DNA from: Verrucomicrobiia bacterium
Lineage (GTDB): Bacteria; Verrucomicrobiota; Verrucomicrobiia; Limisphaerales; DASXHY01
DNA: 63,496 bases
Direction: 5' to 3'
Assembly (NCBI GenBank): GCA_035629175.1
Contig: DASPIL010000003.1
Span: forward strand, 1-63,496
Shown here: positions 37,291-40,260 of the stretch, one piece after another
Layout: every line of letters begins with the position of its first letter
Numbering within the stretch: position 1 is the stretch's first letter
Notes under the pieces: generated by a model
What the model saw: the letters and a program-made list of their open reading frames with translations, nothing else
Told to the model about the DNA's origin: nothing
The model's database searches: none
Made by a program: the position numbers and the translations under genes

Positions 37291-37304
37291 TTGATCTGAG
37301 TCAA
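37291..37304 (+). promoter_or_regulatory. FNR/DNR/NnrR-type palindromic operator
   Basis: TTGAT-CTGA-GTCAA differs by one base from the FNR consensus TTGAT-N4-ATCAA and fits the looser DNR/NnrR pattern TTG-N8-CAA. It lies 34 bases before the ATG of the cupin gene. A class II activator site centred at -41.5 would put transcription start at or near that ATG, so either the mRNA is nearly leaderless or the geometry is different. Regulation by oxygen or nitric oxide is inferred. Confidence 0.6.
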
Positions 37305-37338
37305 AACACATGGCGCAGGTTCGTGTCACAGTGCGTGC

Positions 37339-37731
37339 ATGAACGAAAAGCCGGTGATTGATGCAGCAATCGAAAAAGTTATCTCATTGGAGCAGGAAAC
37401 ACGCTTCGCTCCCAACGGAATTGTCAGCCGCACCTTGTTGCGAACTCCCTTCAGCCGGATTGTGCTGTTTGGATTCGCAGAAGGCCAGGAACTGACGGAG
37501 CACACGTCAACCCAGCATGCAGTCATCCAAATTGCCTCGGGCGAATGCGAGTTTTCGCTCGCTGGAAAAATTCACAATTTAAAAGCGGGCGACATGCTCT
37601 ACATGCCGCCCGGTTTGCCGCATGCCGTACGCGCCACCCAGCAGTTTTCAATGCTGCTCACGCTGTCAAAGCCGGCGCCTGTTGAAGCCACCTCGCCGCT
37701 CGCGCTCAATTCCTTTGCAAAGGTTTCATGA
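37339..37731 (+). CDS. Cupin-domain protein
   Basis: A 130-residue single cupin (about 35-115), with IVLFGFAEGQELTEHTSTQH, then FSLAGKIHNLKAGDMLYMPP and GLPHAVRA. The metal ligands in HTSTQHA, a glutamate-poor first motif and the histidine in LPHAV suggest a degenerate or Fe/Zn/Mn-binding site. Small cupins of this type recur in anaerobic or nitrosative-stress loci (family knowledge, function unproven). First gene of the five-gene unit; its stop overlaps the next start as ATGA. Confidence 0.85.
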   Translation: MNEKPVIDAAIEKVISLEQETRFAPNGIVSRTLLRTPFSRIVLFGFAEGQELTEHTSTQHAVIQIASGECEFSLAGKIHNLKAGDMLYMPPGLPHAVRATQQFSMLLTLSKPAPVEATSPLALNSFAKVS

Positions 37732-38231
37732 GCACCACGGTCCTGGATTTGCGCGAAGAACTGCGCCGCGGCGGTGCTCCGTTTGACCGGATCATGGCCG
37801 CTGCAGGAGACCTCGGAATTGGCGGCTCGCTCGTCCTCATCGCGCCCTTTGAGCCCGCGCCATTGTATTCAGTCCTTGGCCGCCTGGGATTCACACATAC
37901 CAGCGTTGCCAATGACGCGGGGGAGTGGGAGATCCGTTTCGTGCGCAACGCAGCGAACGGGGCGCAGGCCGAAACACCTGCGGCGAAAAGCGCGGTCGCT
38001 TCAGAACCGGCAACAAGCTGGGTTGAAATCGACGCGCGCGGTCTCCAGCCACCTGAGCCCCTGGTTAAAATCCTCGAAGCTGTCACCGATCTGCCGCACG
38101 CGACCGAATTGCGTGCGCGAACTGATCGGCGCCCCATGCATCTTTATCCGCAGCTGGAAGAACGGGGATTTTCTGGCGTTACCCATGAACAACCTGATGG
38201 AAGCTTCATTACCCATATCTGCCGCCGCTAG
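37728..38231 (+). CDS. Protein with two DUF2249 modules
   Basis: 167 residues comprising two copies of the DUF2249 fold joined by an alanine-rich linker. The first is near 4-72 (VLDLREELRRGGAPFDRIMA, then LVLIAPFEPAPLY) and the second near 95-166 (VEIDARGLQPPEPLVKILEA, then ELRARTDRRPMHLYPQLEER). The fold resembles TusA/SirA-like and is often fused to hemerythrin domains or found next to denitrification genes. The characteristic HDPxPL tripeptide is replaced by FEPAPL and DRRPMHL, so ligand binding may differ from the third copy at 39946. Function unknown. Confidence 0.78.
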   Translation: MSTTVLDLREELRRGGAPFDRIMAAAGDLGIGGSLVLIAPFEPAPLYSVLGRLGFTHTSVANDAGEWEIRFVRNAANGAQAETPAAKSAVASEPATSWVEIDARGLQPPEPLVKILEAVTDLPHATELRARTDRRPMHLYPQLEERGFSGVTHEQPDGSFITHICRR

Positions 38232-39615
38232 GCTGGGCACGGCGGCCAAAGCTCCCGCGCTTCCGGCAGTGGCGTCGATCACGCTGCCCCTGCGTTTCAT
38301 GTTCGCGGGAATTCTGGCGTTGAGCGCGGGAACGGCGTGGCTGATCCTCCAGCCGTCCGTGCTCGCCACCTACCATTACAACCAGCATGTGATCGCGGTG
38401 ACACATCTCTTCGTGCTGGGCTGGATTTGTTCGGTTGTCATGGGCGCCATGTATCAACTAGTTCCAGTCGCCCTGGAAACGCAACTCCACAGCGAACGCC
38501 TCGCGAAAGTTCAATTCGTGTTCCACGTGGTGGGCTTCGCCGGAATGGTTTGGATGCTGCGCGCCTGGAACATGAAACAGGTCGGGCATTTCGGCGCAAT
38601 CCTTGCATTTGGAGTGCTGCTGTTCATCTACAACATTGCCCGGACGCTCTTGAAGGTTTCTCGCTGGAACGTTGTCGCGATCTCAATCGCGTCAGCCATT
38701 TTCTGGATCGGCCTCACCATTCTCGCGGGACTCTCGCTGGCCACAGCCAAGCTGCCGTTCGATCCTGAAGTTCAATCGCTTTCGATTTGGAGCCGCCTGC
38801 TCGAACCCGTCGCTGCAACTGTGCGGCAGTTCAATCCCCTGAGCGCGATGCACGCGCATGCGCACCTCGGCGCGATCGGATTCTTCGTGATGCTGATCGT
38901 GGGTGTGTCTTACAAGCTGATCCCGATGTTCACGTTGAGCGAAGTGCAGAACACGCGGCGCGCGTTGACCTCTGTGATTCTTCTGAATGCGGGCCTGCTT
39001 GGAAGCTTTGTGTCCGTCCTCACATCCAGCCCCGCAAAATTCGGGTTCGCACTGCTGATTGTGTCGGCCCTGGCGCTTTACGGAGTCGAACTGAGTGCGA
39101 TTTTACGCGCGCGGAAACGCGGTCCGATCGATTGGGGAGTTCGTTACTTTGTCACGGCAGTGGTTCTCCTTGCGCCGCTGTCGATCGTCGGAGTTGTTCT
39201 TGCGTGGCCGAAGTTGCCGCTCAACGCATTGACGGGCCAATTGGAAAACGTTTATGGCTTCCTGGGGTTAATCGGAGTGGTGACGTTTGCGATCGCCGGC
39301 ATGCTCTACAAAATTGTTCCCTTCCTCGTCTGGTTCGGCACCTACAGCCGTCACATTGGAAAGGCAAAGGTTCCTGCGCTGGGTGATCTCTATTCAACCC
39401 GGCTGCAGGCCGCCGGCTACGGTCTATTTCTTTCCGGCGTGTTGCTCACGTGCGTTGCAACGTTGCTCGAGCATGCATCGTGCGTTCGGCTTGGATCCGC
39501 TTTGATTGGAGGCGCGGTCCTCACACTGATCCTCAATTTCCTCGCCATGCTGCGGCACTTCCTGAGACCGCAACTCACGCCGCTCCGCATCACCACTGTC
39601 GTAAAACCCTCATGA
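38197..39615 (+). CDS. Polytopic histidine-rich membrane protein, NnrS / heme-copper oxidase subunit I-like
   Basis: About 12 transmembrane helices over 472 residues. Histidines cluster at helix ends in two repeated patterns: YHYNQHVIAVTHLFVLGW, then SVVMGAMYQLVPVA; and MHAHAHLGAIGFFVMLIVG, then VSYKLIPMF. These resemble heme/metal ligand positions in NnrS and in cbb3-type subunit I-like proteins, but the full oxidase ligand set is not evident, so I do not call it an oxidase. The start is uncertain: ATG 38185 and 38197 overlap the previous gene by 47 or 35 bases, and a GTG at 38269 avoids the overlap. It is followed by DUF59 with an ATGA overlap. Confidence 0.75.
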   Translation: MEASLPISAAARLGTAAKAPALPAVASITLPLRFMFAGILALSAGTAWLILQPSVLATYHYNQHVIAVTHLFVLGWICSVVMGAMYQLVPVALETQLHSERLAKVQFVFHVVGFAGMVWMLRAWNMKQVGHFGAILAFGVLLFIYNIARTLLKVSRWNVVAISIASAIFWIGLTILAGLSLATAKLPFDPEVQSLSIWSRLLEPVAATVRQFNPLSAMHAHAHLGAIGFFVMLIVGVSYKLIPMFTLSEVQNTRRALTSVILLNAGLLGSFVSVLTSSPAKFGFALLIVSALALYGVELSAILRARKRGPIDWGVRYFVTAVVLLAPLSIVGVVLAWPKLPLNALTGQLENVYGFLGLIGVVTFAIAGMLYKIVPFLVWFGTYSRHIGKAKVPALGDLYSTRLQAAGYGLFLSGVLLTCVATLLEHASCVRLGSALIGGAVLTLILNFLAMLRHFLRPQLTPLRITTVVKPS

Positions 39616-39929
39616 ACACCATTGAAGTCAACGCCGACGTGATCCTCGAGAATCTCCGACAGGTCATCGATCCTGAGATCAACTGCAACATCGTGGATCT
39701 CGGCCTGGTCTATAGCGTCGCGATGAGCGATGGCGTCGTCACGGTGGTGATGACGCTGACGACACCCGGATGCCCAATGCACGAAACGATTTGTTGGGGC
39801 GTGAAAAACGTCCTGATGAGCCTGCCAGGCGTGCTCGATGTGGAGGTCGAACTCGTATGGGATCCGCCATGGCATCCATCGATGATGACTCCCGCCGGCC
39901 GCCAGGCGACTGGCGCTTCTAATTTTTAA
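39612..39929 (+). CDS. DUF59 (MIP18/SufT/PaaD-like) iron-sulfur assembly protein
   Basis: A 105-residue DUF59 domain: ILENLRQVIDPEINCNIVDL, then GLVYSV and TLTTPGCPMHETI with the conserved cysteine. The ending VEVELVWDPPWHPSMMTPAG is typical for the family. DUF59 proteins help mature Fe-S clusters (SufT, CIA2, PaaD). Its coupling to the membrane protein suggests that a cluster- or heme-bearing target belongs to the same operon. The ATG overlaps the preceding stop by 4 bases. Confidence 0.88.
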   Translation: MNTIEVNADVILENLRQVIDPEINCNIVDLGLVYSVAMSDGVVTVVMTLTTPGCPMHETICWGVKNVLMSLPGVLDVEVELVWDPPWHPSMMTPAGRQATGASNF

Positions 39930-39945
39930 CTCACACTAAAAAATC

Positions 39946-40260
39946 ATGAAAAACACTACATCAATTGCTCCAGCACTTGGCGCCGATCGCGTGCTCGACG
40001 TTCGGGCAATCCCGTGTTCGATCAAGCATGGCCTGATCCTGCAGACCTTTCGCGACCTGGCTGTCGGCGAATATTTCATCCTGGTGAACGGCCATGACCC
40101 TGTGCCGCTTTACTATCAGTTCTCAGCCGAATGGCCGGGAACGTTCAAGTGGCAGCATCTCCTCAAACTGGCCGAAGAGGTTCACGTGAAAATCACGAAG
40201 ACAGCCGCACTGGCCGGCGTCGGCGAGAATCTCAAATCGTGCCCGTCCGCAACCCCCTGA
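39946..40260 (+). CDS. DUF2249 protein
   Basis: 104 residues with one DUF2249 module: RVLDVRAIPCSIKHGLILQT, then FRDLAVGEYFILVNGHDPVP and YYQFSAEWPGTFKW. It keeps the GHDPVPL motif lost in the double-module protein at 37728. The C-terminus (about 90-104) is a variable tail. Last gene of the cluster, 16 bp after DUF59; the amine oxidase gene converges 27 bp further. Confidence 0.85.
   Translation: MKNTTSIAPALGADRVLDVRAIPCSIKHGLILQTFRDLAVGEYFILVNGHDPVPLYYQFSAEWPGTFKWQHLLKLAEEVHVKITKTAALAGVGENLKSCPSATP

Follow-up and report, generated by a model that had tools for sequence, protein, structure and literature searches.

We analysed a stretch of 63,496 nucleotides, hereafter the window, taken from contig DASPIL010000003.1 of a Verrucomicrobiia bacterium of the order Limisphaerales (assembly GCA_035629175.1; genome of 5.41 Mb, completeness 96.2%). 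Between positions 37291 and 40260, it carries an operon of five tightly packed genes encoding, in this order, a cupin, a protein with two DUF2249 domains (DUF2249x2), a membrane protein with 12 predicted transmembrane (TM) helices (MEM), a DUF59 protein and a single-domain DUF2249 protein, preceded by a palindrome of the FNR/DNR type (Table 1). The Pfam scores of all five proteins exceed the gathering cut-offs (29.5 for DUF2249, PF10006). The close packing claimed in a preliminary description of this DNA, made from the sequence alone, holds: ATGA overlaps join the cupin to DUF2249x2 and MEM to DUF59, and 16 bp separate DUF59 from the single DUF2249. A small correction concerns MEM, which would more probably start at 38197 rather than at 38185, since several orthologues, as trimmed here, open with MEAS or ME; at either start the gene therefore overlaps that of DUF2249x2, by 35-47 bp. 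The residue numbers given below for H74 and H225 of MEM count from the alternative start, 38185. Throughout, G labels stand for same-order genomes (n = 97; G000 is the window's own), L labels for fetched loci and C labels for contigs.

Table 1. Coordinates of the operon genes and of the upstream palindrome in the window.
Feature	Position	Strand	Remarks
FNR/DNR-type palindrome TTGATCTGAGTCAA	37291..37304		centre 41 bp upstream of cupin ATG
Cupin, single-domain	37339..37731	+	Pfam Cupin_2, 40.4 bits
DUF2249x2, TusA/SirA-like	37728..38231	+	Pfam DUF2249, 107.8 bits in two stretches
MEM, predicted heme-copper oxidase fold	38197..39615 (alternative start 38185)	+	Pfam COX1, 42.5 bits
DUF59 / FeS_assembly_P (PF01883)	39612..39929	+	Pfam, 69.1 bits
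Single DUF2249	39946..40260	+	Pfam DUF2249, 72.7 bits

Conservation of the unit and of its upstream box

MEM matched 24 of the 97 same-order genomes; the weak hits in G049 and G084 were counted as negative and the contig-end fragments of G082 and G086 as positive, which leaves 22 MEM-positive genomes. From 19 genomes, 20 larger loci were taken. Outside this set are L060-L063, contig-end pieces or a second copy of G028 with one or more core partners, as well as L064 and L065, two weak MEM hits with no core partner. In all 20 loci MEM is accompanied by DUF2249x2 and DUF59, which form with it the core of the unit. The single DUF2249 is found in 12 of them and the cupin in 8 (7 on the operon strand, lying 1.7 kb upstream in L045, and 1 on the opposite strand only), MEM stands on the opposite strand in L055, and the full five-gene order is kept in L038, L040, L041, L042, L044 and L048.

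A wider set was formed by the best 80 of at least 474 candidate stretches encoding MEM relatives in a genome collection; it includes, as read from the record titles, Campylobacterota, Deinococcota, Chloroflexota, Bacteroidota, Bacillota, SAR324 and proteobacteria. DUF59 occurs within 3 kb of MEM in 68/80 loci, DUF2249 in 75/80 and both in 64/80, and 3 of the 12 loci without DUF59 stop within 111 bp of MEM. A cupin at that distance was found in 11/80 loci, 10 of these being among the 26 Verrucomicrobial ones, and it is mostly a Verrucomicrobial member of the unit. Plasmid records of Thermus and Ensifer carry DUF2249, MEM and DUF59, an Aliarcobacter plasmid record MEM and DUF59, and a haloarchaeal relative in Halobellus has DUF2249, cupins and nirK nearby, with no DUF59 annotated in the stretch. 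The viral contigs searched held no relative. The co-occurrence of families proposed at the outset stands as far as the core is concerned, and in part only for the set of five; the cupin has to be removed from the core.

As to the palindrome, the near-consensus match first reported upstream of the cupin gene is confirmed: it fits TTGAT-N4-ATCAA at 9 of 10 positions, and when the 112 bp upstream were shuffled by base 500 times, 0.2% of the shuffles reached that score. Furthermore, an FNR/DNR-like palindrome, recognised here by its sequence alone, is conserved upstream of the relatives' operons, an exact TTGAY-N4-RTCAA lying within 250 bp of the start in 16/20 same-order loci (16 of the 19 having upstream sequence) and in all six operons which open with a cupin directly before DUF2249x2. 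The same motif is found at 14/169 other gene starts in those loci, a harsh control because divergent neighbours can share one box. In 13/20 loci the centre of one copy lies 41-44 bp ahead of the start codon (measured from MEM for L053 and L055, and from DUF2249x2 for L045). A chance grouping of unrelated small genes is hardly conceivable in view of these data. The absence of the cupin and of the second DUF2249 from many loci could be cited in its favour and nothing was found for it as regards the core, for which it is refuted by conservation, since loci titled from several phyla share the same core; the spacing of the box is conserved as well.

In the whole genome of the window, TTGAY-N4-RTCAA occurs 31 times, as compared to 8 for a reversed control, and inspection of all 31 sites showed that most of them fall within longer open reading frames (ORFs). 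Besides that of the operon, the sites followed at 41-44 bp by a plausible gene start are C11:15589, with a DUF2249 gene on one side and nos genes on the other; C58:46636, which precedes a weakly NapD-like frame (start 44 bp downstream; E 0.0019, under the gathering score) and a NapA-like gene; and C67:222547-222560 (L111:4548), a perfect TTGATTTGAATCAA located 43 bp ahead of a porin-type outer membrane protein gene of the Alginate_exp family, a possible further member of the regulon.

Association with genes of nitrogen-oxide metabolism

According to the preliminary description, the window has no reductase for nitrite, nitric oxide (NO) or nitrous oxide (N2O). Whole-genome searches agree with this, the window contig giving, at the E-values used, no match to NirK, COX1 (MEM aside), NosZ or NrfA. 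On other contigs of the same genome there are a NosZ (C11:17070-18698), matched in two stretches of 234 and 298 bits, containing nos_propeller according to Pfam, scoring 597.7 bits against an NCBIfam cut-off of 625, and preceded by a cytochrome c/cupredoxin gene; an NrfA (C47:41645-42844); a NapA-like protein (around C58:46917; 900.7 bits against a cut-off of 904); and a qNOR with a NorB_cytochrome_c-like domain (C76:133634-135925). The organism can therefore probably make and remove NO and N2O. No NirK was detected in this genome at E 1e-10, a NirS search matched nothing anywhere, controls included, and an Ensifer cNorB query gave matches in 2/97 genomes, none in the window's genome, missing the qNOR that the COX1 search found. 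On C76 (L097:4992-9929), a 347-residue ORF is followed by a sigma-54-type response regulator gene and then by the adjoining qNOR gene, an arrangement in which the NO reductase (NOR) may be under a control other than that of the window operon.

Another small DUF2249 gene of the window's genome lies directly upstream of a Crp/Fnr-type regulator gene (C46; L059:8693-9659, minus strand), and similar pairs are found near the MEM operon in L038, L040, L041, L045 and L048. Within 10.4 kb of G051, nosZ is followed by the five-gene operon, then by a DUF2249-Crp/Fnr pair and finally by qNOR. NirK is encoded about 5 kb or less from MEM in G008, G010, G021 and G082, i.e., in 4 of the 10 genomes having both (the MEM of G082 is a contig-end fragment), and an NrfA match with one internal stop lies 3.3 kb from MEM in G018. 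On the Ensifer plasmid, the neighbours of MEM are nirK, NO reductase genes, hemN and a gene of the NnrS family.

For the 80 wider loci, the flanking sequence (up to 10 kb) was compared with single reference proteins (E 1e-8 or better). The neighbours recovered include NapA-like or related molybdoenzymes (8), the NarG family (3), NirD-like (6) and NnrR-like (4) proteins, NirK (4), qNOR (4) and cNOR (4, one of them weak, 4e-11), along with hemerythrin (8), Rrf2 (7), radical-SAM (7), siroheme-synthesis-type (7) and FmdE (6) proteins. A Crp/Fnr-type gene is present in 19/80 loci; 11 of these neighbours, all Verrucomicrobial, form one family (E 1e-80 or better) which also matches the C46 regulator, and the rest may be other Crp/Fnr proteins.

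At the level of entire genomes, the 22 MEM-positive were compared with the 75 MEM-negative ones by Fisher tests, which ignore phylogeny. NosZ was found in 8/22 against 0/75 (p 2e-6), so that all eight NosZ genomes carry MEM; NirK, counted only above 200 bits (22 genomes; 28 without that threshold), in 10/22 against 12/75 (p 0.006); and cNOR or qNOR in 5/22 against 2/75 (p 0.006). Any of NirK, NosZ or NOR is present in 15/22 MEM-positive and 13/75 MEM-negative genomes (p 1.3e-5), and restricting the same test to the 62 genomes with a completeness of 90% or more and a contamination of 5% or less gives 10/13 against 6/49 (p 1.5e-5). With NrfA included, the figures are 18/22 and 20/75 (p 5e-6). 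The tie of the unit to NO and denitrification genes, which had been suggested from the protein families, is supported by neighbourhoods and co-occurrence alike.

These distributions also bear on the idea that the unit, with its members of DUF2249, which we take to be COG4309, would be dedicated to the maturation of one enzyme, e.g., N2O reductase or NO reductase. The occurrence of MEM in every NosZ genome and the box between DUF2249 and nos genes on C11 speak for it, as does the association of COG4309 with norB in proteobacteria, as given in the parts of the source available (PMC1274295). Nevertheless, 14/22 MEM-positive genomes have no detected NosZ and 17/22 no tested NOR, and the neighbouring enzymes vary by clade (nar, nap, nirK, nor, nos), which makes such a narrow dedication improbable.

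The membrane protein and its partners

The AlphaFold2 model of MEM, built on a 79-sequence alignment, comprises 12 long helices (predicted local distance difference test, pLDDT, 93.6; predicted template modelling score, pTM, 0.91). Among solved structures it is best matched by cbb3 oxidase subunits (Z 34-35) and by NOR (Z 31-32.5), in alignments spanning 378-403 residues with 13-15% identity, with Z 35.1 over 400 residues to CcoN (8smr_E) and Z 32.5 over 379 residues to the NOR 4xyd_A. In a profile comparison with the PDB, the first MEM helices align with CcoN residues 300-466 (E 2e-11 to 7e-6), and in the whole-genome COX1 search the MEM stretch scored 32.6, just below the cut-off of 34.8. 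MEM is predicted by the model to have the complete 12-TM fold of a heme-copper oxidase (HCO) subunit I.

In HCO and NOR catalytic subunits, six conserved histidines serve the low-spin heme, the high-spin heme and CuB or FeB. By contrast, the residues invariant across the 79 MEM homologues are H74, L78, G87, G182, H225, M248 and F249, with only two histidines among them, and MEM is for that reason probably no canonical reductase. Moreover, a canonical binuclear site is unlikely because the window protein has no histidine in TM7, TM8, TM9 and TM11, and in TM10 only H390, at the helix end. That MEM would itself be a catalytic NO, O2 or N2O reductase, as its complete predicted fold and its nearness to cbb3 oxidases and NOR might suggest, is thus very improbable, the ligands of CuB/FeB and of the high-spin heme being missing at the positions usually ascribed to them. 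The simplest guess from the conserved histidines is one bis-His heme held between H74 and H225.

The three-unit HCO-homologous (HCOH) proteins reportedly described by Pei et al. in 2014 are said to possess 12 TM helices of the HCO fold, two conserved histidines and a predicted single heme, and to be linked to denitrification. MEM would fit that definition by its 12 helices, its two invariant histidines and its two COX1 stretches in one protein, while of the three-unit repeat only a recurring motif is apparent in the alignment.

The preliminary description had termed the membrane protein NnrS-like, an identity that is not supported: Pfam assigns it to COX1 with no NnrS match at E 0.1, and hhalign against one Ensifer NnrS returned a probability of 2.3%. 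The likeness is that NnrS, too, is a membrane heme protein linked to the NO response; in the parts available of a paper citing Stern et al. 2013, it is credited with shielding the iron pool from dinitrosyl complexes (PMC11526790). Yet it is encoded by a separate gene within the same Ensifer cluster.

Regarding the partners, the closest solved match of the cupin is 1yhf. For DUF2249x2 (model with pLDDT 90.5 and pTM 0.49), Foldseek placed first a SirA-like protein and the YeeE-YeeD complex, with TusA further down, with weak E-values (2.3e-3 upward, none at 1e-3) and a probability of 1.00 for the first four rows; the protein also passes the Pfam TusA threshold (30.9 against 28.6 bits). The catalytic cysteine of TusA sits in a CPxP motif, which neither DUF2249 protein of the operon has: in the second domain of DUF2249x2 a proline occupies the cysteine position, and the single DUF2249 has a cysteine there (retained in 14/18 aligned rows) outside any CPxP, together with KH and GHDPVPL motifs. 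The DUF59 protein has the PF01883 domain in common with SufT/DUF59 proteins but scores below the SufT/SUF-associated cut-offs (96.5 against 202.6 bits for TIGR03406; 96.9 against 143.4 for TIGR02945), and its operon partners match no Suf family. The Fe-S repair envisaged in the preliminary description is a role that we infer.

In Thermus, the DUF2249 proteins DrpA and DrpB were studied genetically in 2018 (PMC6282519). The single DUF2249 of the window shares 52% identity with DrpA over 69 aa (E 1e-20) and, being homologous over its length, can be ranked with it by sequence, and DUF2249x2 is 35% identical over 149 aa to the C-terminal half of DrpB. Unlike DrpB, which combines DUF1858 with two DUF2249 domains, the window protein has the latter only; the gene order also differs, a cupin is present and nar genes are not adjacent. 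The window DUF59 and MEM are 41 and 32% identical to their Thermus counterparts, the Thermus DUF59 being two residues off the crystallised TTHB138 (2cu6, 3cq1-3). On the plasmid of Thermus SG0.5JP17-16, MEM and DUF59 share the direction of drpAB and follow it after two intervening genes, and the unit neighbours nitrate reductase genes. In the parts of the 2018 study available, drpAB is reported as its own bicistronic unit, located downstream of nar and dependent on DnrT. In the double mutant, expression of NarG and nar becomes nitrate-independent and nitrate-reductase activity falls to 1/10 of the wild type although NarG is made; DrpA is periplasmic and DrpB cytoplasmic and partly membrane-associated, and the authors lack the link across the membrane (PMC6282519).

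A probable accessory module of nitrogen-oxide respiration

Altogether, the unit very probably belongs to nitrogen-oxide respiration or NO handling. This builds on what could be computed, i.e., the families, the fold, the conservation of operon and box, the co-occurrence with nitrate, nitrite, NO and N2O reductase genes and the nearness to them. We propose that the operon would be an accessory module of nitrogen-oxide respiration, turned on by a Crp/Fnr regulator through the FNR/DNR-type box, and that this regulator is probably the C46 protein encoded beside the small DUF2249. MEM would be a catalytically degenerate HCO fold holding one heme between H74 and H225, which would bind NO, or pass electrons, at the membrane. 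The TusA-like DUF2249 proteins and DUF59 would work with MEM on iron, Fe-S or heme cofactors, and those of the nitrogen-oxide enzymes would thereby be kept intact or correctly inserted under NO. The chances that the unit indeed protects or matures metal cofactors under NO appear about even. Of the NO- or oxygen-responsive module first suggested, core co-occurrence, FNR/DNR-like box and the link to NO and denitrification have held, while NnrS and the cupin as a core member have been given up.

Several observations weigh against this proposal. The Fisher tests are blind to phylogeny, and of the 8 NosZ genomes just 2 exceed the curated cut-off, the other 6 (the window's own included) having two stretches below it. 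NrfA alone does not differ significantly (6/22 against 9/75, p 0.08), and 13/75 MEM-negative genomes have NirK or NOR. Four of the 22 MEM-positive genomes (G047, G073, G088, G096) have no NirK, NosZ, tested NOR or NrfA; two of these are 93-94% complete, and G088 has a NapA-like frame near MEM. Near MEM, no NosZ was found in the 80 wider loci, and in the window's genome no good box precedes either the qNOR gene or the DUF2249-Crp pair. In L048 (G073:C178; genome 73% complete), beyond the 79 aligned homologues, MEM is without some 20 residues including the H225 stretch, which may be a real loss or an assembly error. Sulfur carriage by DUF2249x2 is doubtful because the TusA cysteine is absent, the literature consulted yielded no biochemistry of MEM, and the published reading of DrpAB, in the parts available, is mainly one of sensing (PMC6282519).

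The last point leads to a signalling role, in which MEM would be the membrane transducer of a nitrogen-oxide sensor of the DrpA/DrpB type, with a heme that senses NO or the redox state and with DUF2249 proteins relaying the signal to regulators of the Crp/Fnr type. The kinship of both DUF2249 proteins with DrpA and DrpB, the nitrate-independent nar expression after drpAB loss, the missing link between a periplasmic and a cytoplasmic protein, the position of MEM and DUF59 after drpAB in Thermus SG0.5JP17-16 and the adjacency of small DUF2249 and Crp/Fnr genes in the window's genome and several relatives would all be accommodated by it. Nonetheless, drpAB was reported as a unit of its own, MEM not being mentioned in the parts of the study available (PMC6282519), none of the five proteins has a receiver, kinase or DNA-binding domain according to Pfam, and DUF59 has no obvious signalling role. 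We deem this alternative less probable, albeit a serious one. Rather unlikely, in turn, is a broader conception in which MEM would be a gas or redox sensor derived from a gutted HCO and the missing transmembrane partner of DrpA/DrpB-type proteins, DUF2249, MEM and DUF59 constituting an ancient nitrogen-oxide sensing-and-maturation complex of many bacterial phyla, modified in haloarchaea.

The families and their denitrification link are already known. All four DUF2249 genes of H. mediterranei are up under denitrification, with log2 fold changes of 3.24-8.65 in the parts of the report available (PMC11218638). COG4309 was described in 2005 as accompanying nor genes under NnrR, NsrR or DNR sites and proposed to be relevant to NO reductase, likewise a predicted NO-responsive control near nor genes; the parts available of that paper name COG4309, not MEM or DUF59, and COG2151 does not occur in them (PMC1274295). 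Word searches of one open library found no paper on the five-gene unit, of which an earlier description is possible. To call it an undescribed system was too strong, given COG4309 (2005, PMC1274295), DrpA/DrpB (2018, PMC6282519) and the 2014 paper on HCO-homologous families. Subject to the latter, what is new here is the five-gene arrangement, the conserved box with its constant spacing, the HCO fold modelled for MEM and the connection of MEM and DUF59 with DrpAB. Accessory genes acting in the turnover of NO and N2O matter for microbial N2O release, and several are still without function. The unexplained pair DrpA/DrpB is now tied to a conserved membrane protein and DUF59, and a defined gene set, a regulatory box and the residues H74 and H225 are at hand for testing.

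Some further sequences deserve mention. In four Thermus plasmid records, including HB8 (NC_006462.1:123797-124189), the match to MEM is limited to roughly its final third and falls on a gene annotated as DUF59-type, an appearance suggestive of a module in decay; the crystallised TTHB138 may be a survivor of it. The stretch from drpB to MEM on the plasmid of Thermus thermophilus SG0.5JP17-16 also encodes a protein of 144 residues that matches COX1 weakly (L034:10644-11075); its gene lies between drpB and a protoglobin gene, and it is possibly a single-unit HCO-like protein. Lastly, the window's genome encodes an orphan COX1-family protein of 487 residues (C103:59915-61147; L074), and G013, G047, G073, G088 and G096 have further short COX1 proteins of low score (63-162 bits), with frames of about 477-547 residues.

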